Shown here: in pieces, positions 5,387 to 39,848 of the stretch | How positions within the stretch are numbered: position 1 is the first letter of the stretch | Layout: each line of letters starts with the position of its first letter | Source: Halichondria panicea | Lineage: Eukaryota; Porifera; Demospongiae; Suberitida; Halichondriidae | Direction of reading: 5' to 3' | Assembly (NCBI RefSeq): GCF_963675165.1 | Contig: NC_087389.1 | Span: 4,276,830-4,340,829 of the forward strand | DNA: 64,000 nucleotides | Notes under the pieces: generated by a model | Told to the model about the DNA's origin: nothing | What the model saw: the letters and a program-made list of their open reading frames with translations, nothing else | The model's database searches: none | Position numbers and translations under genes: made by a program

Positions 5387-5402
5387 GCTTATATAGGATT
5401 TG
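5336..5402. repeat. TATA-hairpin module, left inverted copy
   Basis: A 66-bp module reading 'tgggcggagccc', then a GC-rich hairpin (stem cccgacc/ggtcggg), then 'gcttatataggatttgtact'. The same module lies inverted at 7385-7452. In both, the hairpin is kept while its stem sequence differs. On the minus strand it supplies a TATA box to the transposase gene. Confidence 0.65.
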
Positions 5403-5550
5403 TACTTGTGTGTTATGTAATACTGCTTGGAGCATCATGAATATAATCATTTTAAGTGGGTGTTAAACGCAATATGCACCGCACTGCACCACACTGGCTG
5501 GCACTGAACAACATGACTTTGCTACTAAATAAATAAAGTACTGAGCAAGA

Positions 5551-13291: not shown

Positions 13292-16200
13292 CCCTGTGAA
13301 TCAAACCTCTCTCTGAAAGAAAAGCCATGCCCATTGCTATGTCTAGCATGTACTTCATCAGCTGCCTCACTGGTCGAGTGTTTTTCTGCATGCATGTGTT
13401 TGGTAAAAGGAATAGAAGCAATTAAAATCACATAATAATTATTATCGTATCTTGAACAATCTTGAAGTCTATACACTAACCATTAGAAATGTCTTCAAGT
13501 CTCCAAGAGGCATGTATTCCATCACGATCCAATTCTCTGCAGGTATGATTTACCATAATTAAGGTATTCTACCACTTTCTGACTATCGGACTTCTCTTAC
13601 CTTTTTTAATAATTCCATAAAAGCGGACAATGTTGGGATGCTTCATGCTAGAATTGGCAGAAGCGGCCATCTTCCTCTCAAAGTTGTTGTTCTCTTTCTC
13701 GTTCTCACATTTAACTCTCTTCACCGCCACGTCTATCATTTCTCCCGTCAAGTTCTGGAGCTTGCCACAGAAAACATCTCCAAACTCACCTGCGTGACTA
13801 TATATTGTACTCAGATTGGCTATAATATTGCTACAACACCTTTTGCAATTATTTTCATATTAGAAAGGTCTTGAAACATTGACATCTCAACCTCAAGAGT
13901 AGTGGTTGTCTCTGAATAGGAATATGCATGCTCAAATTATCAATGATTGAGGATTTGTATTAGTTTACATGGCTATTAAGTAAAGGCCCTTGATCACAAT
14001 CTACTACTGGGCATTGAAACAGCGTAATAACTATTTTTTTGCCTTGAAAACCATTTGCTGCATTTCATGTTGGTTACGCTTCGAACCGGTGATTAGCAAT
14101 CAGCGATAATACCTCAAAAACCACCCATAAGCGTTATGGGGAGTTGGAGGGGTGGAGCAGCGTAGGAGGATGCCGTCAATGAATATCATTAGCTGCGAAT
14201 TCCCTGCGGTTAATTTGGATCAATGAATATCATTATTCCAAGACAAATTAGGTAAGTAGCTGGGTACGAGCCCACTCCTATGGTGCCCCATCGCGGTATG
14301 AACATACCGGAGAAAGAAAAACAAAAGGGGAATGGGTGGGTAGGAAACAGTAAAAACAGCTAGCCCGCTTTAGTGATAGCTAGACAAATTTCAGCCTGAG
14401 GCAATGCGAGTGAGATGGCAGATTTCCGCACGAGGCGATGCCTGCTAGGCATGCGCAATGTGAAGGCTACGCTCCACCCCATTAACTCCGTTTAACTTCA
14501 TTAAACTCCATATAAAACCAGCATAGAAACCAGTATAGAAACCACTTGGTGCATAGATATGTAGTTTTCTTATAGAATTACAGAATGAAAACCATGCATA
14601 GTGCATAGCAAACTTTCCATATGCAGGAACCACAAATATTGTACAGTGTGGTCCCTATAAAAGCAGTGATTTGACAGTTTGGTAAACCTTCATGCATGTA
14701 TGCATGCCATTCATGTGTTTTGAGTGAGATTCCATGTAATTATATAAAGCAGATTTCATCCATGGACTGCATTTACACACATGCATGCAGTGAAACATGC
14801 ATGTTATAGCATATCAGAGCACTAGATTGTTTTGATCTGCCCACTCACTGGGCAACAAATATAAACGTTTATTCGCTTGGTGATGTTATTAGTTTACAAT
14901 ACAATTATATTATTATATAATTGGAGCAATTAAGTACTAGTTAATGCACTGAGTGCTCTATGGATATTATTGGCCAAGCAGATATTCTTGAAGCATTATG
15001 TAGCACTCGGTTTCGCTTCGAACTACATGAGCTTCTTGAACTTCCATAGAGCACTTGCATGAAACGGTGCATTAACTATAGTTTGTAGTTTCCAGCTACC
15101 AAAACTATCGCTCTAGTAGAGCTAACTATAAGTAGAATAACAACCTTCTATATGAACATTACTATTCCTAATTCTGGAGATACTGCAATGGTAAGTACAT
15201 GATTTTCTAAATAAGTACATAATTTTCTAAGTTGGATAAAACACTTCCTTTAGCCAATCAAATTGCATGCAGTATTTATGGCAAACATGATCTAAAGTTG
15301 TATAGATCTTATAGTCTATGTTATTTGTTAGCATAGTTTTTCTTTTAATCTCTGTGCTATGCAACTAGCTATGCTCAAGACGACATTGCGTTTTATAACA
15401 ATTCAGACTGTAAATTGCAAAGACATTTATTTTCCCCTCACCCTCACAGCTGCCTTGTATAAGTGAAGATGACCTGACTCTCATAATCTCATTACCACCG
15501 TACAGACCAGGCAATGGAGTTCCACCTCCTACTGGTGTTGTTTGCTCTTCTTGGATTTGAACTTCAGTAGAGCGTGATGTTATTGTACCGGCAGTAGACT
15601 CCTTCTTACTGGTGATGTTTATATACCTAAATCTACAAATTTCGTCATAATTATCATCTAGATCTAGATCTATGTCGGTTTTCTGAATACATTTTGATGT
15701 ATTAGCTATGTCATCACACTCCTCTGATGCTAGATCTACATCATCACAGTCCTCTGATACTACATCATTGTAGTTTTCTGATTCTACATCATCATACTCC
15801 TCTGATGCTAGATCTACATCATCACAGTTCTCTGATGCTACATCATCGTAGTTTTCTGATGCTACATCATCATACTCCTCTGATGCTAGTCTAAGATCTA
15901 CATCCTCGTAGTCCTCTGATACTACATCATCATAGTTTTCAGATGCTACATCATCATGCTCCTCTGATGCTAGATCTACATCATCATAATCCCTTGATGC
16001 TACATCATCATAGACCTCTGATGTATTGCCAAAATATTTGAATTCTTGTAGAGATATTTTCTTCGCCTTTTTTGACGAAAACAGCATTTGTCCTTGGCTT
16101 ACTGAACTGGCTGTTAAGGAATCTTGCTTTATATTCCCTATAGCAGACATGGCACCTTGCATTTGAGGCTTTGTGCTTAGCATGTTGTAGGACGGGTTTT

Positions 16201-18175
16201 CTTGTGTGTGTATAACTGTTCTGTGATAGTGTGGCTTAAACTGCTCATAATTTCCCTCTGATGTCTTATGCAGTGAAGCAGTCTGCCTTGAAAATGCTAC
16301 CTTCTGTGCTTTCTGGTGCAAAGCTGCATCCGCTTCAGTGTACACTCGAGGCAGTTCTGTTTCACTCGATCTTGACCGCAAAGGTAGTGAGGGTAAAGGA
16401 TGTGACTTTTCTCTTCTCTGTGCACGTGGTGTTTGAGGGAATGGCTCAACAATCTCGTAGGCAAGATCAGGCTGAGATGGATTTATGAATATCCCTAAAG
16501 CAGTGACCCAGCAATCACGCTCTTCCTGCAAAACTGAATATAATAGTATGTACTACACAGTAAAAACAGATTCGTTATAATAACATAAAACATCTCAAAT
16601 AAAATGCATCATTTGAAATTTAATGTAGAAATGACAGAAATTTATGTCATTTCTACATTAAATTTCAAATGATGCATTTTATTTGAGATGTTTTATGTTA
16701 TTATAACGAATCTGTTTTTACTGTGTATACGTGATTATATAGTATAATCCACCTCTGTATCTGCTTTGAAATACCAAGTTTGTTTCTTTTTTTTGTGCAT
16801 GAAATGCACAGCAAAGCGGAACTGTGGTACTTTATAAACTGGTTCAACAGAATTAACACTTTCCAAATTCAGCTCTTTGACTTTTTTTTCCTAAAGATTC
16901 AAATTAAAGTAAAGGCATTGAAGATAATGCAACACTCACAGACCACTTTTGATATTTCAGTTTTCCATCTTCAAGGTGGAGAACACAACGCTTGCTGCAT
17001 TGATTCTTTTTCTTCCCATGGCATATCTGCATCTCCATCACAAAGTGTGAGCCACCCTGTGACAGTCAATTATTAAAAGCAATACATAATGTCAACTTAA
17101 TTACCATGATTTTAGTTAGTTGAATACTTGCACCTGTAATTGAAGGGGGTTGTTCTATTGACATGCTTAGTTTTTTCATTGCGTTCTCCTTTGAAGTCTC
17201 ATGCAATGAAGCAGCCTGCTCTAAAAACGCTGCCTTTTGATCTTCCTGGTGCATAGCTGAGCTCAGCATTTCAGACATTTTCTTGGATGTTGGTCTACAC
17301 TCTGGCATGTTATCTAAGCAGAGCTTTACCATTCCAATCACTTCGGAAGGAATTGCTTTCATTTTTTCTATTTCTTCAAAGTACGTAATTCTACGCTCCA
17401 CTTCACTTCTTGCACACAGTTTGTTCGGAGGGTGGCTGTTTGGATCGCTGTAAGTCGAGTGCAGGAGAGGACTTGGAAATTGATGACCAAAAACAAAAAG
17501 AGACATGTGGCCAAAAGAAAATATATCGAGGCCAGTGTCGTATATGGCTGGGGCACCATTGGCTTCCGGTGGCATGTAATCAAGTGTGCCTGGAGTTTGG
17601 CTGAGATGTCTAGCAACAGTTTCTGGGTCGATGATGTGAAAGTTTCCAAGATCTGCAATTTTTGCTTGCGTTGTAGATGTGAGGAGGATGTTTTGTGCAG
17701 TGAGGTCACGATGTATGATCGGTGGTTGATAGGAGTGCAAAAAGACGAGGCCTTTTGCAACATCATAGAGAATAGACAGCCGTAAAAACAATGAAACTTC
17801 CTTTGCAGGAATTGTCTCCAAAAAATCGTCAAGACTTTTGTCGAGTCGTTCCATTACGAGAACAGGACTAAAGCTATCGTCAAGAAAAGCAAGGCCATAA
17901 AAGTGAACTATGTTTGGGTGATGCATTTGTGACATTAGCTCACACTCAGTGAGGAATTTGTCAACGATATGTTGGATACCTTTGTTTAGTGGATCAAGAA
18001 ACGTCTCATGTATTTTCTTACCTGCACAAGCTGCTCCGTAAAACTGGAGCTCGACAACATAACCAAATGCTCCGCTTCCAAGCTGTCTTCCCGTGGATAC
18101 CACTCCTTGCTTGATGTACGGCTGTAGTCGAGGTGTGTCCCTGATTTCCTGCAAATAGTGAATGTCTTCACTCAT
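13292..18175 (-). CDS. Dual-kinase family member 3: kinase 1, PH, YDDV-repeat linker; kinase 2 truncated
   Basis: Exon 1 (18175-17105, 357 codons) is a protein kinase with G-loop GSGAFGYV, Lys in CAGKKIHE, catalytic [10 protein letters not shown] and DLG in place of DFG. Exons 2 and 3 (17056-16940, 16890-16753) plus the start of exon 4 (from 16525, EERDCWV) form a PH domain ending in its conserved Trp helix. Exon 4 continues through a Ser/Pro linker and a 12-unit acidic YDDV-like repeat. Read through, exon 4 stops at 15365 and gives an uninterrupted frame of about 828 aa. A possible donor near 15440 would instead splice to kinase 2 exons at about 13915-13838, 13790-13600, 13536-13480 and 13386-13292. 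These encode the N-lobe (GEFGDVF, VAVKRVK, KHPNIVRFYG) and end at 'LIHR', just before the catalytic Asp exon, which is missing. A second active kinase is therefore impossible. It is probably a PH-tethered single kinase. Confidence 0.7.
14935..15083. mobile_element. Short imperfect inverted-repeat element
   Basis: Ends 'tagttaatgcac' and 'gtgcattaacta', plus inner 'tgctctatgga' and 'tccatagagca', form nested inverted repeats around a centre of about 80 bp. MITE-like, inside the long putative intron of the truncated dual-kinase gene. Confidence 0.6.
15700..16025 (-). repeat. Coding tandem repeat: 12 acidic [Y/H/C]-D/E/N-D-V/I units
   Basis: Within exon 4 of the truncated dual-kinase gene, 8- to 12-residue units of the form SE-x-YDDV repeat 12 times. 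Eight units keep Tyr, one has His and three have Cys in that position; each change fits a single-base substitution of a Tyr codon. Spacing between successive YxxV/I cores alternates between about 4, 6 and 8 residues. Confidence 0.85.
16555..16726. repeat. Perfect 82-bp palindromic hairpin in an intron
   Basis: Bases 16555-16636 and 16645-16726 are exact reverse complements over 82 bp, with an 8-base loop (gaaattta). The hairpin fills most of the intron between PH exon 3 and exon 4 of the truncated dual-kinase gene. If transcribed with the gene it would fold into a continuous 82-bp duplex. Confidence 0.97.
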
Positions 18176-18464
18176 TTTGTATTTATGAATTTGAATCGGA
18201 AGATCAGTCAATAGCTTCTAGCTTGTGCTGTTGATTGAAACGAGTGGTTTGTTGGATTCGATCCAGGTCAGGAGTGTAGTGAATGTAGGAGGTTTTGTAC
18301 TTGTTTTTGTATTTGAATAGAGTTCTGTAAACAATCCTAACGGATATCACAGCTTGTTTATTTGCTATTACCCGAATTGTTTTTGTTGTCAGTTCATCTT
18401 TAACTGCTAAAACAAGCTGTGAATTGTGTTAATGGTTTACTTAGATTCATAACATTCGTTTCAC

Positions 18465-21165
18465 ACTGGCCTGTAGAGTTTTCACAGCTACATCTACCAT
18501 CTCACCAGTTAGATAACGCAGCTTGGCATGATAGATATCTTCGAATTCTCCTTTGTTTAAAAATTACAATAGTACAGTGGCTTATCTGAGTCATTACTAT
18601 TCGCAATAAGCTCCCATTACAACTCATGTAGTGGTTTTGATGATCCTGTGCAAATTAACATTTTAACATACATTGTGTATTGTATAGAACTGGGGAGGAT
18701 GGAACCACTGTTTATTATTCAGACTGCTTTGTTTACTGCATATATACCATGCCTATATGCTCTCGCTGCTAAGGTGATGCACCTCCATGGGCGGGACTAG
18801 GGAGTGAAGGGACCTCCGACCTATTGTCATGAATAATATTGTGAAAGCTTTGGAGTTCAATTTTACTTATATCAAGTGTGTTAAACTTACATTTTTCCAT
18901 CACTCTCACAGCTGCCTTGTGTAGGTGAAGATGACTTGACTCTCATTTTTCTCAGTAGATCTATCACTGTACAGACCAGGCAGCATTAGAGTATTTGTGC
19001 TGTTGGCTCATCTTGGATTGTAACTTCAGCAGAACTTGGTCTACTGGCAGCAAACTCATTTTGGCTGGTGATGTTTACATAATTATACAACTACTAACCT
19101 TATAATAATATCACCTAGATCTATGTGGTTTGCTGCATGCATGTGAACATTTAACTTTTGATATAACATTAGCCACATTTAATATAGGCCTGGTTTCTGT
19201 CTCGGGAAAATGTCCGCTTTGATGGTGTGAGTGGTGCCACGGCAATGTTATACCTACTATCAATGTCATCATACAGTTTATTCCGATATATATGTTGAAC
19301 TTGTACGACATGCAAAATATTGTTTTGTTACTACATCATCATAGACCTAACTCTGATGCAAGCAATTCTAAGGAATCTTGCTCCATGCAGTAACAAGCAT
19401 ATGGATAGAACCTTGCACTTGAGGCTTTGCGCTTGGCACTTTGTATAATAGATTTGATATTGTGTAGATTTGTCTGTTATAGTACAGTGGGGCGGGGCGA
19501 CTTAAAGTGCTTTGATATTTCGTGGAGGAGGGAAGCAGCCTGCCTTGAAATTGCTACCCTTTCTGCTTTCTGCGCTTTATATTACACGCTCGAGGCAAAT
19601 CTGTTTCAGACCGCAAAAGTGGTAGGGGTACAGGTCTAGTTTCTTTGGTTCAACAGTCTCGTGATAATTAAGCACAATTAATTAATGTGACAATGTTTGA
19701 AATCTAGAAGGCTGAGATGGATTGATGAATCCTCCCAGAGCAGTGACGGTGTTCTTGCAAAATTTCATTATTCTATATACTATACACATAGTAGCTTATG
19801 AACCACAAATCTTGTAGCATAATTTGATTCTTTTTCTTCCCATGGCATATATATATTAAGTGAAGAGGTTTGTTCTATACAAACACCAATTTGACACACA
19901 CTTTAATGGCTCAGAATTTCAGAAACTTTCTTGGGTGGTGGTCTACACTCTTACGTTATCTATAGGCGCATGCAGCTTTACCATTCCAATCATTAATTGT
20001 GTATTGTATAGAACTGGGGAGGATCTATTTCTTCAAAGTAAGCAACTCATATGCTCCACTTAATTCACTTCTTGCACACAGTTTGTTCGGAGGGTGGCTG
20101 TTTGGATCGTTGTAATTTGGTCGCAGGAGAGGACTTGGAAATTGATGGCTAGGAACATAAGGAGACATGTGTCCAAAAGAGAATGTATCGAGGCTGGTGT
20201 CGTATATGGCTGGGGTACCAATGGCTTCGAGTGGCATGTACACAAGTTATGCCTGGAGTTTGGCTGAGACTTCTCGAAAGAGCTTCTGTGTCGATGATGC
20301 AAGAGTTGCCAAGATTTGCTTGCTTTTTGAGGAGAATGTTTTGTGCAGTGAGGTCACGATGTATGATTGGTGGCCGAGTGCAAAAAGACAACCTTTTGCA
20401 ACATCATTCAGGCGTAAAACAATGAAACGTTCTTTGCCGGAATTGTCTCCAAGAAATCGTCAAGAATTTTGTCCATTATGAGAACAGGACTTAAGTTATC
20501 GTCAAAAATAAAAACCATAAAAGTTATGTGTAGGCGTAAAACAATGAAACGTTCTTTGCCGGAATTGTCTCCAAGAAATCGTCAAGACTTTTGTCCATTA
20601 CGAGAACAGGACTTAAGTTATCGTCAAAAATAAAAACCATAAAAGTTATGTGTAGGCGTAAAACAATGAAACGTTCTTTGCCGGAATTGTCTCCAAGAAA
20701 TCGTCAAGACTTTTGTCCATTACGAGAACAGGACTGAAGTTATCGTCAAAAAGAAAAACCATAAAAGTTATATGTTTGGTTGATGCATGTGTGACATTAG
20801 CTCACACTCAGCGATGAATTGGTCAACGATATGTTGGACACCTTTATTTAGCGGGTCAAGAAACGTCTCATGTATCTTCTTCCCTGCACAAGCTGCTCCG
20901 TAAAGCTGGAGCTCAACAACTGCCTTCCAATATTGGACCTGTATCAAGTACCCCTTACAATATCATTACACATTCAATCATCTAGATTCATGCAGCATAG
21001 TTATACTCTTACTTTTACATGTGATTATGGTGTCACACAAAAGTACACCTAATGCAGGAAAGTTTGGTCTACTAAGCTATACTGTTAAATTTAACGGGTT
21101 GCTGCAATTGAGGGAACTCTTTGATCAGCTGCAGACGACTGCGTACACTGCTGTCCATCTCGCTA
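18465..21165 (-). pseudogene. Dual-kinase family member 4, full-length pseudogene
   Basis: Degenerate pieces match the other family members in the expected order. The start exon (about 21145-21094) encodes an N-terminus beginning MDSSVRSRLQLIKE, close to the copy at 25045. Kinase 1 remnants cover about 20920-19900 (including an HRDLTAQN-like piece near 20370 and DIFSFGH-like near 20190). Remnants of the PH exon (about 19850-19820), PH-end/linker start (about 19750-19690), linker (about 19650-19325 and 19080-18890) and kinase 2 N-lobe (about 18560-18465, VDVAVKTLQ) follow. Frames are broken by many indels and the kinase 2 C-lobe is absent. One 122-bp stretch of kinase 1 has been triplicated. 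The proximal promoter motif 'aacactcaca' near 21255 is still shared with the functional copy at 25045. Confidence 0.8.
20410..20775. repeat. Three tandem copies of a ~122-bp unit inside a pseudogene
   Basis: Units begin at about 20410, 20533 and 20654, each starting 'aggcgtaaaacaatgaaacg'. They differ by a few substitutions, so the triplication is recent. The unit derives from the kinase 1 segment around the FLET/MERLD region. Confidence 0.92.
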
Positions 21166-21351
21166 TACTCACTCTAAAAAAATGCTGTATGCATGGAAGA
21201 AAACTGCTCACTATAGCGATATAATACTGCTCTTCATGCATCCTAAAACTGTAACACTCACATTAGCGGTTATCGTAGTTTAGTTACATAATGTTACTAT
21301 AACCACACGTTGTCACAAAATAATATCACACTCACTATCTATATAGCTATA

Positions 21352-24300
21352 CTAAAATGCATGAATTTTGTGTGCTAGCAAAGTAGCAAGCTGACTAAAG
21401 GTTGGTCTATCCATGGGCTTTTCTTTCCAGCAGGATTGCATTATTGTTTCAATTTCTTCCGGGCAGTGTGTGGGGATTTTCAATCCAGCCCCATGCGAAA
21501 TTTTGATAACCACTTGAACGTTATCGTACTCTTCGAATGGTACGCAGTGTGGATTGAAAATTTCCCAGGCGACTATGCCATAGCTCCAGACATCTGAAGC
21601 GAATGAGAATTTCTTTTCACCTAAACTCTCTGGTGCCATCCAACGAATTGGACATTTTCCACTACTTCTGTCGATATAGTAATTCATGTCATCTGGGAGT
21701 TGACGGAGTAGACCAAAGTCAGATACTTTGCAATTCTCACCACCAGAGGCCATTAGTATATTTCTAGCGGCCAGATCCTGCATTTACATTTACCATAATT
21801 ATCGTGCCTTTCTACAATGATTAGCATTGTCCGTGCACTTTTACTTATTACTTATCCCATGTCGATCTTTCTACTATTCAATTAGAATTGTGCATAATAT
21901 TATTATACTTACCCTGTGAATCAAACCTCTCTCTGAAAGAAAAGCCATGCCCATTGCTATGTCTAGCATGTACTTGACAAGCCAATTTAAAGGTTTTGAA
22001 GTTTTCTGTGTGCATGCATGTGGTTTACTGACTTAACTTGTCTTTATAATTATACTTGTAACTCACACATAAGAATTGCTTCAAATTTCCTGATGGCAAG
22101 TATTCCATCACAATTTGATCCACTGCATGCAAATATTCATACTTACAATCATACCCGACAATGCATAAAATGAACGAAGATTAATAATCATGAAGATCGA
22201 GCTGCTACCTGTCCAGTACTTAATTAACTGATTCTGTATGTGCATAATAATTATACCTCCTTCAACGAGACCGTAGACTTTGACAATATTAGGATGCTTT
22301 AGACGTGGATCAGCAGAAATAGCCATTTCCCTCTCAAAGTTTCTCCTCTCAGTAGCATCTTTACAAATCTGTAGAGTCTTCACAGCTACATCCACCTCCT
22401 CACCCGTTAAATTTAACAGCTTAGCATGGAAAATATTCCCAAACTCGCCTGCATGATATCAATATTATAGTTTTTGCTGTATACTTTTTAGGGTAGTCAG
22501 AAATAGATCTACATGCAATTATGAAATAGCCACTAACGACGGGATGTTATAATTATACCTTACCTTTAGTGATAAACTTTTGATCAAAAAGACGATCCTT
22601 TGGGATGTGGAGTGATACGAGTAGATCTTTTAATGGCCTTGACGTTCCTATATAATACACATTACTTGCGATCGATGCTAGTCTGTTATTAAATCAGTTA
22701 CCTTGCTTTGGAGTCCTTGGTCTGTGCTGAGCAGTAACTGATTCTGGATATGGGGCTGGAGGCTTCAAGCTATAATAATTCCATAGTACATTATAAGCCA
22801 AGTTAATTGAATAGATGCATGTAGAAAGTGAATACCGTACCTTGATCCATAAGATCTAACTGGGGATAGTTGTACTTTTGCTCCCTCAATGTTTAACACT
22901 AAAATTAATACTATAATGATCCATGATTTAGTATTGATTGAAAACTATACTTTTATGGTGCTCAGGGCTGTACTGCTGTGTAGGAGATACAGCTCTACCA
23001 GGTGAACATGTGGGTTTCTTTCTATAGGTCTGTGGCTTGGGAAGAAAAGGTGCTCTAAATTGTCCTTCATCAACGATCCTCTTTTGTTTGGGTGAAATGA
23101 TAATATCATCATAGTCATCTGATTCGTCAGCTTTTGACGAGCCATCCAACAAATCCGTAACACAATAAAGTGATGCTGGTTCTTGTAATACTGGGATGTC
23201 ATGAGCTCTTAGTAATTCTGTTCTTGAAACGTAAGACTGGTTTGCCTCCAAGTTAAATCCACTGTATGCTACAGTATTAGCTGGAGAAGATGGTACATAC
23301 AGAGAATACGTTGGTTGCTTTTGTCTTTGTTTTCGGTGAGGAGATTTTCTCAAAAAATCACCAACTGGTGTGGTATCAGATCTATGTCTCATATTTTCTT
23401 GTTGAGGCTGCGTAACATCTTTAGAGGACACTTTTTTTTTAGCTACAAGCTTTGGATCGAAGTCATATTGATATTCATAAGCAAGATCATTTTTTGAGGT
23501 CTGAGGTGACGGTATGTCATCACTCAGTGACTCAGTGGCATCACGTAAGACCTTGATCCAACAGTCTCTCTCTTCCTGTTAAAAAAACTATAAGTTATTA
23601 CTATAATTAAAAATAATTACCTCTGTCTCTGCTCTAAGATGCCATTCTTGTTCTTCACCTTTATGCTGAAAGTGTACTGTAAATCGGGTTGGCTCATCGT
23701 ACAAAGGTAGGACAGTGCGGACATTTTCAAGTTTCAATTCTTTGCATCGTCTATCCTATAATAATAATTGTACAGACAGCCAAAATGAATTATCTGTGAA
23801 CTCAGATTACAGGTCTTACGTTTAGCTTGCTGTAGTACTTCAATCTTTTGTTGTCAAGCTGGAAAATATATGTTTTTCTAGAATTTCTTCGCCCTTGTGC
23901 AACTTGCATTTCCATCATATAGCGATTACCATTCTGCATGATTAAATTCACAAAATAATTGCTATATCATGCATAATTATATTAAATTATACCTTAATGT
24001 TTGTCATATGGGTGTTCGTAGCTGTGGTAGATCTACTGAATGTTTCGTCCATGCCTGATGAATTCGAAACAGAGCATGCTTGCAGCTTTTCCATCGTTCT
24101 ATCACACTCTTCTGCTTGTTTTTTATGTCCATCCAGCAGTTCAGATATTACTACAGCTGTTGGTCTCTGCTTTGGAAAGTTGTCTAGACATGACTTTACA
24201 AGCTCGACAACCTGGGTTGGGATTTGGGTGTGGAGGTCTTTAAAATATTCACTTCGGCGTTCTACTTCAGTTCTCGGTGTAAGTTTGTTTGAAGCACGGC

Positions 24301-25045
24301 TTTTAGGATCGCTGTAGTTTGCTCCTAGAAGAGAGCTTGGAAATCGATGGCAAAAAACGAACAGTGCAGTATGGCCAAAAGAGAAAATATCCAAACTGAT
24401 ATCATATGCTACTGGGCTTTCCATTGCCTCTGGTGGCATGTACACAAGTGTACCTGGAGCTAGACTGAGTTTTCTAGATAAGGTTTCTTTTTCAATCATT
24501 CGGGAGTTGCCAAGATCTGCAATGCATGCTTTCTTCATAGTTGTAAGAAGGATATTCTTTGCAGTAAGATCACGATGAGCAATAGGTGGCTGGTGGGAAT
24601 GCAAGAAAACAAGTCCTTTTGCTACATCGTGAAGAATAGACAAGCGAATTGAGAACATGACATCTTTCGCTTCCGTGTTTTCGAGAAAGTCGTCAAGACT
24701 TCTGTCAAGTCGCTCCATAACCAAAACAGGCCTGGAGCTATCGTCAATAAAAGCAAGGCCATAAAAATGAACAATATTGGGATGGCGCATCTTGGACAGT
24801 AGGTCGCATTCTGTCACAAATTTGTCAATGACTTGTTTAACACCTTCGTTTCTTGGATGTAAGAATGTTTCGTGGATCTTTTTTCCAGCACAGATTGCCC
24901 CCCCATGAAGCTGAACTTCTATCACAGATCCAAACGATCCACGTCCGAGCTGTCTTCCTTTAGAGATCACCCCTTTCAAAATGAATTGCTGCATTTGAGG
25001 CAACTCTTTGATCAATTGCAAAGGACTGCGTACACAGCTATCCAT
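21352..25045 (-). CDS. Dual-kinase family member 2: kinase 1, PH domain, linker, tyrosine kinase
   Basis: Eleven exons sum to a divisible frame of about 967 aa: 25045-23993, 23933-23820, 23755-23621, 23575-22951, 22898-22841, 22769-22702, 22647-22564, 22448-22257, 22122-22067, 22005-21913, 21777-21352. Kinase 1 has GRGSFGSV, Lys in CAGKKIHE, AHRDLTAKN and DLG. Exons 2-4 encode a PH domain (RKTYIFQL, LKYYSKLN, WHLRAETEEERDCW). The linker has DDYDDIIIS and basic/Pro stretches. Kinase 2 is a canonical tyrosine kinase: [44 protein letters not shown] and SDVWSYGI. There is no signal peptide or membrane span, so it is likely cytoplasmic and recruited to membrane by the PH domain. Kinase 2 probably phosphorylates tyrosines, perhaps in the linker. 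A triplicated element lies just upstream. Confidence 0.88.
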
Positions 25046-25160
25046 CTCGATTGTCTAGGTTTATCTTTAAAGCAAATTGCAATAAAATGTTATGCATGAA
25101 CAAATTCAAAAACTGTTCACAATAGCTACACTGCATGTCATGCATTCATTCTGAAACTAT

Positions 25161-25551
25161 AACACTCACAGCAGCGGATATCATAGATTTTTTAAACAAG
25201 TTGCCAATTTATAATGACAGCTTTCTTTTACTGTAAACAAAGCAGTGTGTTAGTTGATTTAATTCTTGTGCTTTTTTTTCGTTTCATAACACTCACAGCA
25301 GCGGATATCATAGATTTTTTAAACAAGTTGCCAATTTATAATGACAGCTTAATTTCTTTTACTGTAAACAAAGCAGTGTGTTAGTTGATTTAATTCTTGT
25401 GCTTTTTGTTTCGATTCATAACACTCACAGCAGCGGATATCATAGATTTTTTAAACAAGTTGCCAATTTATAATGACAGCTTAATTTCTTTTACTGTAAA
25501 CAAAGCAGTGTGTTAGTTGATTTAATTCTTGTGGTTTTTGTTTCGATTCAT
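25161..25551. repeat. Three tandem ~130-bp promoter-proximal units
   Basis: Units start at 25161, 25288 and 25420 with 'aacactcacagcagcggata' and run through 'ttttactgtaaacaaagcag'. They lie within about 500 bp upstream of the start codon at 25045. The pseudogene member 4 has one degenerate copy at the equivalent site (about 21255), so the block is ancestral promoter sequence amplified in this copy. Confidence 0.88.
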
Positions 25552-26126
25552 GCAATGATTATGTGGCGATTGTTGTGCAGTCTCATAATTAACTATAAGT
25601 AGCTCCATGCAAGGTTTTGACCAATTATATGCTACAATGTATCATGCATTCTTTTTTATGCTCATGTTCTGCCTATAATTATTATTTTGGCATACCTCGA
25701 TCTATCGTTCTATGTCACTAAACAAAATGATTATGAATTGTACTAGATCTACAATTATAAGTTTGTATCATAGAGTCTAGTCGACTCAAAAAGAACGTTT
25801 TTGTCATTCAGACTAGACAAATCGTTCTAATGCAGCCCACGATGGCTGGAATGGAGTGTAAGGCCCAATTTAAGGCATCTATGGTGAGCCCTAACCATGC
25901 ACATCTCTAAATATTCATCCTATAATTATTATTAATTATAGGCCTATTATTCTGGTGTGGGCCAATACTAGAACCTATAATACCCAAGATTTTAAGTGTA
26001 GCAATGAGTTACTGTAACTAAACAAACAATATTTTTATCGTTTTAACTGTGCATGCATGTGGAGATAAAAGTGTCTAAGTTAACTAATTATAGACAACAG
26101 TTATAAATTAAGTTTGACAGCTAGAG
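25552..26126. other. Intergenic, no gene seen
   Basis: Spacer between the triplicated promoter block and the stop codon of the next kinase gene. AT-rich, no recognisable feature. Confidence 0.5.
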
Positions 26127-29100
26127 CTAAATTAAACCAATCGTAAAGTTCATTTCGGTTAGAGCTTTCACCAGGAGCAAAAAACTTGGCCTCTTAGCTG
26201 GTTCTTTCCTCCAACAGGACTTCATCAACCTGGCTATATCCTCAGGGCAGTTGCTGGGGATTATAGGTGTGAGCGTACTAGAGACTTTGGCGGCCACTTG
26301 AATGTTGCTGTATTCCTCAAAAGGAACAGCGTGTGGATTGAAGATCTCCCATGCGAAGATGCCGTAGCTCCACACGTCAGAAGCATAGGAGAATTTCTTG
26401 TCAGTTAAACTTTCAGGAGCCATCCAACGAACAGGACACTTGGCATACGTTGTCTGTACATAGTACTCCTCATCGTCTGGTAGTCTACGAAGAAGGCCAA
26501 AGTCTGACACCTTGCAGATCTCACCAGGAGTTCCCATCAAAACATTTCGAGCAGCCAAATCCTATAATTAGATGTAATAATTATAATTATGGTCTACATG
26601 TACAGTTTACCCTGTGTACTAGTCCTTTCTCTGAGAGGAAAAGCATTCCCAATGCAACATCCAGCATGTACTTGACCAGCTTCCTCACTGGTCGAGTGTT
26701 TTTCTGTGTTTGGTAAAAGGAATGGAAGCAATTAAAAGCAGCATAATAGCATAATGGTATCTTGAACAATTTTGAAGTATTGTTGAAGTACACTAACCAT
26801 TAGAAATGTCTTCAAGTCTCCAAGAGGCATGTATTCCATCACGATCCAATTCTCTGCAGGTATGATTTACCATAAGCACTTTCTGACTATCAGAGTCTCT
26901 TACCTATTTTTACAATTCCATAAACGCGTACAATATTTGGGTGCTTCATGCTAGGATCGGCAGAAGCGGCCATCTCCATCTCAAAGTTTTTGCTCTCTTT
27001 CTCATCCTCACACCTTTTAAGGCTCTTCACTGCCACGTCTATCATTTCTCCCGTCAAGTTCTGGAGCTTGCCACAGAAAACATCTCCAAACTCACCTGCA
27101 TGATAAAAGTAAATTAATTATTATAACCCTCAGATTGGCAAATATTTATTGCTACACACCTTCTGCAATGAAGTCCATGTTGTAAAGGTGATTCCGAGGG
27201 ATATACAATGCTTTCAGGTCTTGAAACTTTGACACCTCAACATCCGGAGTTGTAGTTGTTTCTGAAAGTGATTAAGTCGATCATGAGTTTAGTTTATAAT
27301 GCAATCGTCTTACTTGCTCTTGCCCAATTTGGTCTGCGATGTGCTCCTTGACTTCCGATGACATCATAGGCACACTCCTCATCAGGTACCAGCCTGTTGA
27401 AAAAAACAATCAAGCATAGTATAATACGGACTGGCAGTCTGGGTGTGCATTTTTTAACACGCATGTAACTATACTTCACTATTATACACTCACATGGAGA
27501 CAGCACTCCCTTTGGACGCTGATTGACTCAGTATTGACTCTGTACAGAAAGCAAATTTATACCATTGATATACAGATTTTACCAGCATTAGATCTAGCTA
27601 TACCTATTAAATTAATCTCATGCATCTACCCTAAAACTAAACTCACGGATGGTATTCCTTTTGGTGTCTCCCGTACTGGGAGAAGGTGTGTATGGCAGGC
27701 CAAGAACACTCGGTTTTCCTTGCTTCTGTTTCGATTTCTTCAGTGTACTTGGCTTTGGGGGAGGCAAAGGCTTCACTGGTACAGCCGGTTCATCGTAATC
27801 GTCGACAATGCTCTCATAGAAATCGTTAGAATCGGCGTGGGCATACACATTACCCTTTTTTCTTGGTGCTTTAACAACAACTGTGTCGTCATAAAGATCT
27901 GCCAACTCTGGTTGAGCTCTCCTGCGAGGAGATACTGGAATTGGAACCCCATACTGACCATTATCAGCCACTCGCTGCAGGAGATCGACCAATAGGGTGA
28001 GTTGATCGGGAGTGAAGTCGCTCAAATCAGTCGAGCCAGGTCTGCTTCGTAGCTTGCTGGTAGTATTGATCTCTTCATACTGATCCTCGGCTGTAGGCTC
28101 ATTGATACGAGGTTTGAATTGTGAATACTCAGTCCGTGGAGGCTGTGGAATATCGTAGACTGGACCTTGAGGCTCAACTGGTGCGTCTCGAGTTTGAAGA
28201 CCTTGATACTCATCTCTTTTCTCCTTCCAGGCTTTTTTCTGGGACCTCACTGAAGCCATATCCACATAGTCGTATGCATCTGGTGGCTGAGGAGGAGTGT
28301 CAGGAGGTGGTTCAGAATGAAGACCTGCACCATCACAGAGAGCTTGTACCCAGCAGTCCCTCTCCTCCTGTGATTGTATAGGTGATGGATTGTGATAGCT
28401 ATAATCATAACACATCACGAGAAAACGTGACAGGATGACACATTTAAGGCGTCAATGTTATTTTCTAAACTAAAAGAAAATTGCACTTAGTAACTATACA
28501 ACTGTTATTTCCTTTTTGTTGGAATTATCAAAACTTAATAGCAAGTGTAAAGCAGACCTCTGTCGCAGCTCTGAGATAGTATTCCCCCTTTTGCTCAGTG
28601 CTGACAGTAAAATGGAATTTCGGCTTCCCACGCACTGCTGCTACTTGAGTAACTTGCTCCAGCTTCAAAACTTGGTGTTTCTTGTCCTACATAGTATAGT
28701 ACACCATGGAGTGAAGACATGTAAGTAAGTAACCAACAACCAACTTACATTCAGTTTGGTGTAATACTTAAGAAATTGCCCATTAACCAGTTCGAACATG
28801 AAATTTTTCCAAACAATGGTCTTCCGTCTAAATCCACCATGTGCAATTTTCATCTCCAACAAGAATGGATTCCCTCCCTGTAAAATGTTAATTTTATGCT
28901 ACAGTACAAATAAATAAACTAGAGCACCGAAGTACTATATTGATGAATCCTGGTATGGATGAATGGCATTGCTGCAGTTTTTCAGAAGAGTTAATTGCGG
29001 CCTGGGATCGAGGCTAGTGGTTGTAGCGCACATGCGTAATTTATGGGACTCTTGGTGTGATACATATTATTATACCTACAACCTCCCAAATTGTAAGCTA

Positions 29101-30186
29101 TAAACAGAATTAACTATAAGCTAACATTCAACTTACTGTTACTCTTGTCATCAGGTTACTAGCCTTCCTCTGTGCCACAGTACTAGGTTGGTGTGGTGCA
29201 TCCATTTCGTCAGACATTTGGAAGCCTCTCATCTTCTCCATCACTTTCTTGTACTCCACGCTCTCTTCCAAAAGATTCTCCAAAACTTCTGCCATTTCGT
29301 TTGAGCTCGGTCTGTCTTGAGGATTGTTGTCAAGGCATGCCTTCACGATGTCAACAAGATGAGATGGAATTAGCTCATTTGCTTCAAGCGTCTCAAAGTA
29401 AAGGCTTCTACGCTCCACCTCAGTTCGTGCTAGCAACTTTCCATTGCCGTCTGGGTACGTAGCAGGGAGGAGGTGTGTTGGGAAGACATGAGTTAACACA
29501 AAGAGGGCGACATGTCCAAAAGAGAACATGTCCAGACTTGCACCGTACTTTGGTTTAAACTCGAGAGCCTCGGGTGGCATGTAAAGCAGAGTACCAGGAG
29601 TTTGACTGAGAGTCCTGGTAATTTTTTCGGTGTCGATGATGCGAGAGTTGCCAAGATCTGCGATCCTTGCTTGCTTGGTTGTAGTGAGGAGAATGTTTCG
29701 TGCAGTGAGGTCACGATGTATGATGGGTGGTTGATAGGAGTGCAAAAAGACGAGCCCTTTGCCGACATCGTAGAGAATTGAGACTCGAATCGAAAATGGG
29801 AGATCTTTCATTTGTGATCTCTCCAAGTAATCTTCCAGACTCCTGTCAAGCTGCTCCATGACAAGGATCGGGGTGGAGCTATCATCAAGGAAAGCTAGGC
29901 CATAGAAGTTGACAATATTTGGATGGCGCATCTTGGACATGAGCTCACATTCCGCCACAAATTTTTCAATCATTTTTTGTACTCCTTCATTTTGAGGGCT
30001 TATCAAAGCATCATGTATCCTTTTCCCCGCACAAAAAGCTCCTCCTATCATCCTCATCTCTATGACAGATCCGAATGCACCATGGCCGAGATGTTTACCA
30101 GTTGATACAACTCCTTTCAAGATGTAAGGCTGCAGTCTTTGGATGTCCTTGGACTGTTGCATGTAGCGGCTACCAGCATCGGCCAT
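26127..30186 (-). CDS. Dual-kinase family member 1: kinase 1, PH domain, Tyr/Pro-rich linker, tyrosine kinase
   Basis: Eleven exons give one frame of about 1,003 aa: 30186-29137, 28877-28749, 28686-28558, 28367-27647, 27518-27494 (25 nt), 27393-27314, 27261-27160, 27095-26904, 26853-26798, 26703-26611, 26561-26127. Kinase 1 (residues about 25-310): GHGAFGSV, Lys55, Glu79, HRDLTARN (Asp159), DLG (Asp177). PH domain, residues about 351-450, ends in [10 protein letters not shown]. The linker, about 450-740, has YDYVDM, YDIPQPP, YEEI, YDDT, DDYDEP and a [13 protein letters not shown]3-type ligand. Kinase 2, about 746-1003: [57 protein letters not shown]. The start at 30186 fits the N-termini of the paralogues. 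No membrane span is seen. It is probably a cytoplasmic or membrane-recruited kinase with SH2 and SH3 docking sites; substrates are unknown. Confidence 0.9.
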
Positions 30187-31300: not shown

Positions 31301-32112
31301 ATGGCAACTTATTCTCCTCGTCCCAAAAAAGATCATGACACGGTCACCTTCTGGCAGCTTTTTGAACAAGCAGCAAAATGAAGATATGGACAGAACATTC
31401 GCGTTCTCAAAACTGCGTCTTATGAGACGAAAGTGAACAATATTGACCTTCAACTGAGCGTTGTTGCTATGGAGAAAAAACCTAGCGAAAGAAAACGCAC
31501 CATCGTAGATATACAAACATGAAAGAGTACGTAAATCATGGAAAAGTAGCTCAGGATGAAAGCGTTGTTCGGATCAACAAAAAGTCATTCAAAACTGAAG
31601 GAGATCGTTACACCTTCTCCTCGACAAAAGGAGTTAATTTTGGGGTTGGAAGCAATCTTGGAGCACAGGTGATGGGTGCGGCTGTAGCTGGAGGGAGCAT
31701 CGGAATAAGTGGGCATTATGACAAGAGCAAGTCTACGACTGAAGGAACAGAGAAGTCCAGCACAAAAGGCTATGAGTACAGCTACAATCAAGAGGAGAAG
31801 ATAGTCGTGCCGCCAAGGACACGTGTTACAGCCACAATCACCACCTACCGCATGAAGTACGAAATAAAATACACCATGAAGCTAAGCGTAGACAGGAATG
31901 CTTTTCTTCAAATGATCTACAAGACCCCCTGTCAGCATCTGTGTTTCGGGGTGTTCAGAAGCAGTGGTTACGTGAACATTCGTGATATGTTCAGCACCTT
32001 GCCTAATTACAATTCAGATGATGAAGATGACACGGCAAGTTTCACACAGGATGGCATACTGTCTTGGGTCGGGGAGGGATGCAGTGTGGAAAAAATTGAA
32101 GAACCTCTATAG
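31301..32112 (+). pseudogene. Aerolysin/ETX-MTX2-like pore-former homologue, broken copy
   Basis: Homologous along its whole length to the intact minus-strand copy at 63073-63885, including the upstream flank. From the matching ATG at 31301 the frame meets a TGA at codon 27 (31379-31381), and a further small indel breaks the frame just before 31519. From 31519 the remaining 197 codons are open to the stop at 32112. The surviving part has the Ser/Thr/Gly-rich amphipathic segment and the following VVPP-containing strand typical of the aerolysin-type beta-pore-forming fold. A low-complexity acidic segment and a conserved Trp-Val-Gly-Glu-Gly-Cys tail follow. Family members oligomerise on membranes, but no activity is shown here. 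Probably a pseudogene; an N-terminally truncated product from 31519 is possible. Confidence 0.65.
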
Positions 32113-35489: not shown

Positions 35490-35860
35490 ATGAAAGTACT
35501 AAATGAGACGTGCAAGAGGAGAAGTGGGTAGTGCAGTCATAGTGAATGATCAGATGGGTGGTTGATGGGAGTGCAAAATAACGAGAGACGGGCACTTGTG
35601 CGATATCTCCAAGTTATCTTCAAGACTCCTGTGAAGCTGATCCGTGACAAGAAAAGCTACCAATAGAAGTTGACAAGAATGGCACATCTTGGACATGAGC
35701 TCACTATCCGCCACGAAATTTTTCAATCATTTTTTGCACCTTTTCGTATGTACACTTTAGATGTAACTACCCTGGTTGGCATACAAATACCCTTCTTCAT
35801 CCTCATCTCTATGACGGATCCGTATGCACTATGGCTAAGGTGTTTACCATGCAGGTGTAG
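35490..35860 (-). pseudogene. Dual-kinase kinase 1 fragment
   Basis: Gapped nucleotide match to 29680-30105 of the dual-kinase gene. Preserved phrases include 'gatgggtggttgat', 'ggcacatcttggacatgagc' and 'ttcaatcattttttgcacc'. These cover the region from the G-loop to the HRD motif. Frames are destroyed. It is isolated from the main array by the pore-former-like and fibrinogen-like genes. Confidence 0.75.
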
Positions 35861-37079: not shown

Positions 37080-39848
37080 CTAAAGTTTGTCAGCAGTAGA
37101 TTTGGGCAAGTCTTTCTTAAACTCAATCACATCAACACTTGCTGTCAACTTTTTCTCCAAATTCTTCTTTCTCTGCTTGTCAGTCTTAATGGCATCTTGA
37201 AGACTTTTCAACTTGTCTTCTTCTTGAGCAAGACTGCGGATGTATTTGGAGGCCTCTTTTTCGTGACCCTCAAGAGCGGAGATGTTGCTTCGGAGATGTT
37301 GCTGTGTCGACTGAACCTCGCGAATCTCAGACTCCTTTTCGTAAATTCCACGCTGGATATCGTTAATCTGCATCTTGATTACAAAAGTATCACGAACAGC
37401 TCGCTCAGTTTTGGAATCGACAAGCTTGTCTCTCACCCACTTCTCAAGAACATCCTCCTGCACGTCTCGTATTTCATACTCCTTGATATCGTTGATCTCC
37501 TCACGAACGGTGAATGTTTTTTTCTCCGTGTTGGCAGGCACTTCAAAACGGAACTGGTAGAATCGATCGGTAATGTCGACAGGCTCTTCCTCCTCAACGT
37601 CTGGGATCTGAACAAGGTCGTAGTCTTCCAAAAAGAGGTGGTTTAGAAGGAAATCCATTTTCTTATCACTCTTATTTTTGATTCGATACAGAGTGATCTC
37701 ACGATGTATACGGGTCACTGTAGCTGTCCCCCTCTCGATACACATGTGGTGTGGTTTGAGGTAAGTGCTGTCGACGCCTTTAGCAATCTCACAGGCCAAC
37801 TCAACAGCAAACGGAATGGGTGGAGATTCGTCACCGGGGTGGATGGTTGGTAGGGTGCCTTGACCGAGGAAAACATCGGAGTTGGAGATCTGCAAACTCC
37901 CTCCCTCCAGAGTGCGTCCAGTTGTGTTTTCAAACAGCAGAGCACAGAGAGGGTTACCGGTACGAATAGACTCGTCGTAAAGGTAGACTTTCTGCCCTTC
38001 AAGTTGGGCTTGTAGCAGTGGAACAATCGCCTTCTGCTTTCTCTTTGCTGTTACGTGCATCGGGATTTGATAGCAAGAGAGATTGTCCTGGGATGCCATC
38101 ACAAACTGGCTCTGATTACTGGAACCAAATCGATTTTGGATACCCTTCGTCGATGAAGTGCTAGCCATGATGAGAGTTGCATTATTCCCGATTGTGTAAT
38201 CAGAGAGGAGGCGGCCATCTTCAACAGCTTTTCCAGCAAACATGAGCTTGAATGAGAACGGAGAAGTTCCTTTTGTTTTTGCAATTTTGGCCTTCAGTTT
38301 TAGTACACCATCTTTCGGATTTGCTCGCATATTGAAGTACGATCCGTTCAGGTCCTTGATCTTCAGTTGCCAGATTCCCTCGTCAGATATGGACCGCGAT
38401 TTTGACTCTATGGGCGGAGCTCCGACCACCAGTTTAAGGCTGATATCATTCCAGTCTTCGTCGAGTGTGTTGTGGACTATGGCCAGACCATCCAGTTGAA
38501 AGTTGGTGGGGTGATCTGATAGCTTCATGCGATAAGAGCTCTTGAACTCAGTTACCTGTAGGGAAAGATAAAACAGTTACAAACTTTGAGAAAGTTGATG
38601 ATTAGCTTTATTAGGCAGTCAAAATTTTGGTTATTTTATCTACAATGTTTGCTATTTTTAAGCAGTGCATGAATAATATTATAGGAGTATCCCACTCCCA
38701 CATACTTCTATAGACAATGCAGAAGGTGGTGTCATAGTACGTACTTATATCACAGAGTGCATAAATACACTTATGGTGAAAAATCACCTGATATCACAAG
38801 AGTGTTTGTTGATAGTGTGTAATAAAGAAGAGGAGGTACGACTGCTACAATTGAGGTATTTGGTCACAGCACTGTTGGAATTATGCACGTGACCAAGCCT
38901 AATTGAGGTACTCGTGATGTACCTCCTCTGGTGTGTAAGCGTGTATGAACCTGGTGTGGTTAGCATAGTTTATATAACTACAATTAGTGTTTGTGACATA
39001 GCAACTTCAGGCAAGTATAGAGGTGCGTGGGAGTCGGATACTCCTATTCATACACTCCTGATATACCGTACAACTGGAAAATTTGGCGGGCAAATGAGCC
39101 ATTGAACCGTCTTGGTTTTTTTATTTGGCGTCTCAGGCGTGGCTATTACAGTAATGACGTTGTGTCCACTGGTAAATTCAACACCAGCCAAATTTTCCAG
39201 TTTTACGGCATAGAAAATAATAATCATAATCAAACTTACCTGAAAACCATAACGAGCGATGAGGTTTTGTGGTGTGTCTATGTCAGAGTAGAACACGCTC
39301 AGCTTCTGGTGATCATCATTTCCAGTCATCCTCCTGAGATCGAGAGAAAAGGCGAGGTCCTCTTGTACTTGCGCCTCCAGGATATGGAAATTCTTGATGT
39401 TTTTGATCGGAAACATCCTCATGAAACCCCCCTCCTGTAGAATGCTAACGTGCTCAAGCTCATTTCCAGAGGTGGGGTCGTGTACAGAGTTGTCAACACC
39501 TAAAACCCGCCCCTCAATAACCTCCAAATTATCAGCATCTTGGAACGTGATGGACATCATTCGACCGACTAGGGAGCGTATTAGACCGACAATTGGCTCA
39601 CGACTACTCAAGCTGATGCTTGCCTCAGGCTTTGTGACCTCGTAGGCAATGTTTCCAACTTTCGTACTTGCATCTCCATTGAATTGTAGACTCTCAAGAA
39701 CACTTTTCATGTGGTCAGAGGAGAAGTAAAGATCGATATTACCGTGACCTTGGATGACTTTTTCTCGTTGGAAAACGGCAAAACCATTGTCGTAGAGCGT
39801 GACCTGCCTGATAGGCATGCCTTCCATCTGCTGAGCCTCACTTGCCAT
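37080..39848 (-). CDS. DUF4139-type protein with inserted ubiquitin-like domain and C-terminal coiled coil
   Basis: Two exons, 39848-39240 and 38555-37080, joined in phase 0, give about 694 aa. The N-terminus (VTLYDNGFAVFQRE) and the later core (SYRMKL, FQLDGLAIVHNTLDEDWNDISLKLVVG) match the DUF4139 mucoidy-inhibitor-like family, whose function is unknown. Just after that core, about residues 245-320, a segment with WQLKIKDLNGSYF, LKLKAKI, FKLMFAGKAVEDGRLLSDY and ATLIM has the sequence pattern of a beta-grasp ubiquitin-like domain, without a terminal Gly-Gly. A long charged helical C-terminus (QRGIYEKESEIREVQS onward) is predicted coiled coil. No signal peptide or membrane span is seen, so it is probably cytosolic. 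It is divergent from the RBM-type gene with about 0.5 kb between. The intron holds an inverted-repeat element. Confidence 0.8.
38681..39047. mobile_element. Nested inverted-repeat element in the DUF4139 gene intron
   Basis: The outer ends 'ataggagtatcccactccca' and the imperfect complement 'tgggagtcggatactcctat' bracket an inner inverted pair, 'gaggaggtacgactgc' near 38829 and 'gatgtacctcctc' near 38916. MITE-like, non-coding. Confidence 0.7.

Follow-up and report, generated by a model that had tools for sequence, protein, structure and literature searches.

A probable sponge family of two-kinase proteins with a central PH domain and linker, at a duplicated locus of Halichondria panicea

Introduction

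Tandem active kinases of different groups occur in the RSK and MSK proteins (AGC and CAMK), where one kinase controls the other and both are Ser/Thr kinases, and plant tandem kinase proteins combine a kinase with a pseudokinase. The JAK/TYK2 proteins are non-receptor chains in the order FERM, SH2, pseudokinase and tyrosine kinase, while the Tec kinases unite a PH domain and a tyrosine kinase in the order PH, SH3, SH2, kinase. Docking proteins of the Gab/DOS type are described as having an N-terminal PH domain, a proline-rich part and tyrosines that dock SH2 domains, and as being phosphorylated by other kinases (PMC2747914). Here we describe a chain in which a TKL-like kinase (kinase 1) comes first, then a PH domain and a linker, and lastly a kinase of tyrosine-kinase type (kinase 2). 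Since this order recurs on a second contig (C14) and in a database protein (P0002), the chain likely constitutes a real, unnamed family of sponge signalling proteins. The stretch of DNA analysed, hereafter the window, comprises 64,000 nucleotides (C13:4276830-4340829) of the 131-Mb genome of the demosponge Halichondria panicea.

Results

The initial annotation of the window had recognised four minus-strand copies of the chain sharing one exon plan. This description stands for the two complete copies, A and B, but copy C is without its last kinase-2 exon and copy D is a remnant (Table 1). Exon boundaries of A and B were placed by hand at GT-AG sites, so that the GT-AG consensus is present by construction. 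The resulting 11-exon models read through without internal stop, and the two clean frames expected, of about 1,003 and 967 aa, were recovered as products of 1010 and 967 aa respectively. All ten introns have the same phases in both copies (0,0,0,1,2,1,1,1,0,0) and exons 8, 9 and 10 are equal in length (192, 56 and 93 nt); identity between the products is 52% across kinase 1 and the PH domain, and 61% across kinase 2. Pfam finds two PK_Tyr_Ser-Thr stretches and one PH domain in each product, and the kinase motifs first read from the sequence are all in place, namely HRDLT and DLG in kinase 1, and HRDLAARN, DFG and CP[VI]RWMAPES in kinase 2. Given two long open frames, shared intron phases and the same domain order at three further loci, the pattern in A and B goes beyond chance.

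Table 1. Positions within the window of the four copies, their parts and neighbouring sequence features.
Feature	Position	Strand	Exon boundaries or content
Copy A	30186-26127	-	11 exons
A exon 1, kinase 1 (TKL-like)	29137..30186	-	single exon, end phase 0
A exons 2-3, most of PH	28558..28877	-	28877-28749, 28686-28558
A exons 4-7, final PH helix and Tyr-/Pro-rich linker	27160..28367	-	28367-27647, 27539-27494, 27393-27314, 27261-27160
A exons 8-11, kinase 2 (tyrosine-kinase type)	26127..27095	-	27095-26904, 26853-26798, 26703-26611, 26561-26127
Repeats between A and B	25145-25535		three direct repeats
Copy B	25045-21352	-	11 exons
B exon 1, kinase 1	23993..25045	-	
B exons 2-3, PH	23621..23933	-	23933-23820, 23755-23621
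B exons 4-7, PH end and linker	22564..23575	-	23575-22951, 22898-22841, 22769-22702, 22647-22564
B exons 8-11, kinase 2	21352..22448	-	22448-22257, 22122-22067, 22005-21913, 21777-21352
D, degraded remnant	18471..20923	-	kinase-1 fragments 20923-19906, linker trace 19303-18890, kinase-2 exon piece 18563-18471
Repeats within D	20410-20775		three direct repeats
C, kinase 1, PH and linker exons	15365..18175	-	
C, palindrome in intron	16554-16727		
C, linker repeat family	15654-16047		
C, surviving kinase-2-side exons	13293..13924	-	four exons
Integrase and helix-turn-helix frames	3660-5434	-	
ETX_MTX2 frame	31486-32112	+	
Further kinase-1 fragments	35505-35848	-	degraded
Ubiquitin-family frame	37080-38576	-	

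The PH domain was expected to be split between exons, and in both A (Pfam E 3.7e-8) and B (Pfam E 9.3e-8) it indeed occupies exons 2 and 3 and ends in the exons that also encode the linker. Scores of 34.3 bits in A, 33.0 in B and 29.3 in C (from P0003, the database product of that copy) lie above the curated cut-off of 25.1; the corresponding region of P0002 scores 17.5 bits (E 0.0061), which is below the Pfam cut-off, and aligns with the family PH domain at an hhalign probability of 91. Basic residues near the first loop of the domain in A, B, C and E (a further copy, described below) suggest that it may bind lipids such as phosphoinositides.

The linker is less uniform. We counted five classes of motif in six linkers and compared them with 2000 shuffles of each. 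The Y[DE]x[PVIL] motif reaches the floor of the shuffle test in A (6 against 0.6 expected), in C (9 against 0.72, largely through one repeated unit) and in one linker exon from C14 (7 against 0.48), and is marginally enriched in E (2 against 0.29, p 0.03). There is no enrichment in B (1 against 0.39, p 0.32), the motif does not occur in the P0002 linker, and Y-x-N is enriched in none of the six. A linker rich in tyrosine and SH2-type motifs, as originally proposed, therefore holds for A, C, one C14 exon and weakly for E, but not for B or P0002, and linker tyrosine motifs are no constant feature of the family. Two other stretches recur: one of F-x-x-D-Q-L type, common by eye to the A, C14 and C16 linkers, and P-R-P-E-W-A-K, which the first C14 copy shares with the C16 gene and which is present in altered form in P0002.

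Phylogenetic analysis of the individual kinase domains, as had been advised, indicates that kinase 1 and kinase 2 differ in ancestry. Among solved structures, kinase 1 finds its best sequence matches in CTR1 and TNNI3K, whereas those of kinase 2 are tyrosine kinases of the receptor, JAK and FAK types. We built a tree from 98 domains, hand-picked out of 644 (neither it nor a second tree having a row chosen as Tec or Src). One side of it unites the kinase 1s and other proteins of kinase-1 type (38 rows, 98/98), and the kinase 2s lie on the other, tyrosine-kinase side (60 rows), where the seven belonging to the family form one clade (100/100). A single clade of family kinase 1s is not rejected (p-AU 0.38) and was recovered at 82/80 in another tree. 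Internal duplication of one kinase was considered and rejected, given that the two separate to either side of the 98-domain tree and are about 30% identical; the chain is instead a fusion.

Both kinases retain the residues expected of active enzymes. The catalytic Lys, Glu, HRD Asp, Asn and DLG Asp of kinase 1 are present in all seven family rows (A, B, C, E, the two C14 copies and P0002), as are the Lys, Glu, Asp, Asn and DFG Asp of kinase 2 in its seven rows (A, B, E, the two C14 copies, C16 and P0002); the first glycine of the nucleotide loop is replaced in kinase 2 of A, B and E. Loops of the PGTxxYMPPE type are associated with Ser/Thr specificity and those of the P[VI]RWM[AP]PES type with Tyr specificity. 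Kinase 1 has the former, a Ser/Thr-type P+1 loop, and a conserved Ser in its activation segment, and is likely to be Ser/Thr-specific. Kinase 2 has the latter, together with the HRDLAARN loop and the tree placement of a tyrosine kinase; from its loop motif and a conserved activation-loop Tyr we infer that it is Tyr-specific.

Substitution rates separate the kinases from the linker. When A, B and E are compared, both kinases have dN values of 0.20-0.29 and the linker has values of 0.85-1.16, so that the linker changes about three to four times faster and aligns poorly (26-30% identity). With dS mostly saturated in these comparisons, dN/dS for kinase 1 is 0.087 between A and E, 0.105 between A and C, and 0.122 between B and E, and is not computable between A and B; for kinase 2 it is not estimable, because synonymous sites are saturated.

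Searches of the genome listed 116 matches to kinase 1 of A (116 of 849 candidates were scored) and 148 to the last exon of kinase 2. Of the best 20 of these 148, five lie downstream of one of the 116 listed kinase-1 matches, in the same orientation and at a distance of no more than 15 kb, these being A, B, E and two on C14, and the order of kinase 1 before kinase 2 is kept at these five loci on two contigs (C13 and C14). Copy E (C13:4265223-4261219) has 10 exons in a hand-built model, and its phases agree with those of A and B once the kinase-2 exons begin. Its 93-nt exon contains one in-frame stop in the model, and splicing at an alternative AG 24 nt downstream would preserve the reading frame. 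Between the kinases of the first C14 copy there is a frame whose match is to the first half of the B PH domain (E 0.001-0.002), a PH-like second half recognised by eye, and a long tyrosine-rich linker frame, and part of this set is found between the kinases of the second.

On C16, a gene at about 947.5-953 kb (L018, L016) comprises a linker and kinase 2. No kinase-1 match was found within 10 kb upstream, and its first part gave an hhalign probability of 2.3 for PH, so that a PH domain is not established. Its kinase 2 groups with those of P0002 and the C14 copies (99/80 in the 98-domain tree, 92/78 in a second tree), which makes loss of kinase 1 the simpler reading, though not a proven one, and would mean that kinase 1 is dispensable in one lineage.

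The broken copies have decayed in different ways. C keeps its kinase 1 exon, PH exons and a linker exon with a repeated unit of Y-D-D-V type, and its last kinase-2 exon, from the HRD aspartate to the C-terminus, was not found within the window. A lone kinase-2 last exon with altered letters in the catalytic loop (F, at C13:4268.2-4268.7 kb) was considered as the lost end of C, but it matches the B tail at 96% and adjoins D-like kinase-1 fragments, so that F is likelier to be a duplicated B tail. The B tail and remnant D together are apparently duplicated beside E on C13 (L009 9058-9797, L010 248-673).

Several other features lie in or around the array. One intron of C contains a near-perfect palindrome, with 87-nt arms that are 99% complementary and no loop, which looks like a small inverted-repeat element. 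The direct repeats between A and B are about 130 nt each, and those within D are 122 nt each. More degraded kinase-1 fragments lie outside the four copies. Elsewhere in the window are an integrase core domain (rva_4, E 5e-74) with a helix-turn-helix frame, likely a mobile element, a frame matching the Pfam family ETX_MTX2 (E 2e-6), and a 498-aa frame with a ubiquitin-family domain.

Kinase 1 has relatives joined to tyrosine-kinase-type domains in other proteins. P0121, P0122, P0242-P0244 and P0123 each carry, in one frame, an N-terminal kinase-1-type domain and either one (P0123) or three (the others) tyrosine-kinase-type domains. They differ from the sponge chain in their linker, which is not a PH domain (coiled-coil-like by eye), and the long ones have SH3. 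Grouping kinase 1 of P0123 with that of the sponge family is rejected (p-AU 9.5e-6), and so, on the kinase-1 side, is one origin for all such joins (p-AU 2.3e-8 for P0123, P0121, P0243 and P0244 together); the same test on the tyrosine-kinase side is borderline (p-AU 0.056 and 0.045). The DFG aspartate is missing from the tyrosine-kinase-type domain of P0123 and from the first such domain of P0121, which means that some of these joins may be inactive. These sequences suggest a repeated theme, in which kinase-1 and tyrosine-kinase-type domains may have been joined through different linkers. A separate set, P0228-P0240, consists of proteins of about 2,700-3,000 aa; ten kinase domains each were counted by profile in 12 of the 355 proteins scanned, and Pfam agrees for P0228 and P0230.

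Discussion

In proposing what such a chain might do, our preferred reading, held with slightly better than even confidence, is of a docking protein that carries its own enzymes, in the order kinase 1, PH, linker, kinase 2. The PH domain likely brings the chain to the membrane. There, the targets of kinase 2 would be its own activation loop and, in copies that have them, the linker tyrosines, which once phosphorylated would draw in SH2 proteins; kinase 1 would determine when kinase 2 acts in this way.

The likeliest of the alternatives is that kinase 1 acts allosterically, as a mainly non-catalytic regulator of kinase 2 comparable to the JAK pseudokinase. A tandem arrangement within one chain would suit this role, and the HRDLT loop without the usual lysine and DLG in place of DFG are departures from the usual Ser/Thr kinase that could be read in the same way. 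Against it, kinase 1 keeps its catalytic residues in every one of the seven family rows and its codons are constrained in the older comparisons (A-E, A-C and B-E), and we regard this alternative as unlikely.

It is also conceivable, but quite unlikely, that the two halves are neighbouring genes, or are mostly transcribed separately, with kinase 1, PH domain and linker in one protein and the tyrosine kinase in another, so that they only resemble a single chain on the genome. Database searches with A (proteins of 555-1767 aa) and with A and B together (1087-3460 aa), in which B was never a stand-alone query, returned neither A nor B, as separate genes would predict; equally, both may be divided, absent or truncated in public gene models. 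P0003 (LOC135346500 isoform X3, Halichondria panicea) crosses from the linker of C into kinase-2-side exons and ends in the second of these, read out of frame, which would also suit separate genes, as would the C16 relative lacking kinase 1 upstream. Against this stands P0002, a protein of 942 aa that is likely from another sponge and is 35% identical to A over 98% of its length. It carries both kinases in a single, intron-free frame filling a contig of 2898 nt (source label lgn, presumably the Logan assemblies), which points to a transcript and argues for a single message encoding the whole chain from kinase 1 to kinase 2. Split-codon phases agree between the two complete copies all the way through the linker and on into kinase 2, and conservation of order at five loci on two contigs is likewise hard to reconcile with independent genes. 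A and B are each predicted to be transcribed as one mRNA. Structure predictions for P0002 and P0003 gave useful confidence only for kinase 1 of the former and parts of kinase 1 of the latter, with no confident PH, linker or kinase 2.

Finally, local duplication, the broken copies C and D, the many genome relatives of kinase 1 and the young C-E pair, with its relaxed kinase 1 (dN/dS 0.57), might recall a rapidly evolving set of sponge immune proteins, comparable to plant tandem kinase proteins, that serve in recognition or as decoys and use kinase 1 as the bait. In A, B and E, however, both kinases evolve slowly, which a decoy would not do, and further members of the family exist at distant loci and as P0002, so that this is the explanation we consider least probable.

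Returning to the docking protein with its own enzymes, a more ambitious version, which we put forward only tentatively, would see the chain as a class of non-receptor tyrosine kinase forming a closed relay of Ser/Thr kinase, membrane anchor, docking scaffold and tyrosine kinase, and as one of at least two occasions on which members of the large kinase-1 group were joined to tyrosine kinases, wiring Ser/Thr-to-Tyr signalling in cis. An SH2-free, two-kinase chain kept across deep sponge paralogs would represent an alternative wiring of phosphotyrosine signalling near the base of the animals, and would offer a compact test of one kinase gating another in cis.

How far the chain departs from described systems can be judged by architecture. 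A search of the open-licence literature for a chain of tandem kinases and PH domain in sponges, Porifera, Amphimedon or choanoflagellates found no paper, and the earlier statement that no named family with this order is known agrees with that literature, subscription papers being mostly outside the search. One resemblance is to JAK/TYK2, in having two kinases within one non-receptor chain and the tyrosine kinase last. Yet no FERM and no SH2 domain was found in A or B (hmmscan, E 0.001), and both JAK kinase domains stand on the tyrosine-kinase side of the 98-domain tree, with kinase 1 outside it. Moreover, the sponge kinase 1 is TKL-like and retains its catalytic residues where JAK has a pseudokinase. 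Membership of the JAK family was rejected on these grounds, and the distinction from JAK that the initial annotation had drawn is sustained. With RSK and MSK the chain shares two kinases of different groups, but here a TKL-like kinase is paired with a tyrosine kinase and the PH domain separates them, and the best solved matches, TKL-type for kinase 1 and tyrosine kinases for kinase 2, exclude it from that family. Nor does it belong with the plant tandem kinase proteins, since both kinases of A and B keep their catalytic residues.

The Tec kinases resemble the chain in possessing a PH domain and a tyrosine kinase, and the Tec PH domain is a weak match (E 0.063); the sponge PH domain, however, is central and preceded by a kinase, and Pfam found neither SH3 nor SH2, so that Tec membership was also rejected. 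The Gab/DOS proteins offer a parallel for the middle of the chain, where copy A has a PH domain and then a linker containing proline motifs and motifs of the Y-x-x-P type. This comparison is one of architecture, and membership was rejected because the sponge PH domain follows a kinase (residues 368-448 of A) and is not N-terminal; the docking part is instead flanked by two kinases. The chain therefore lies outside the named families tested (JAK, Tec, Gab and RSK), and at the level of sequence it is real and recurrent.
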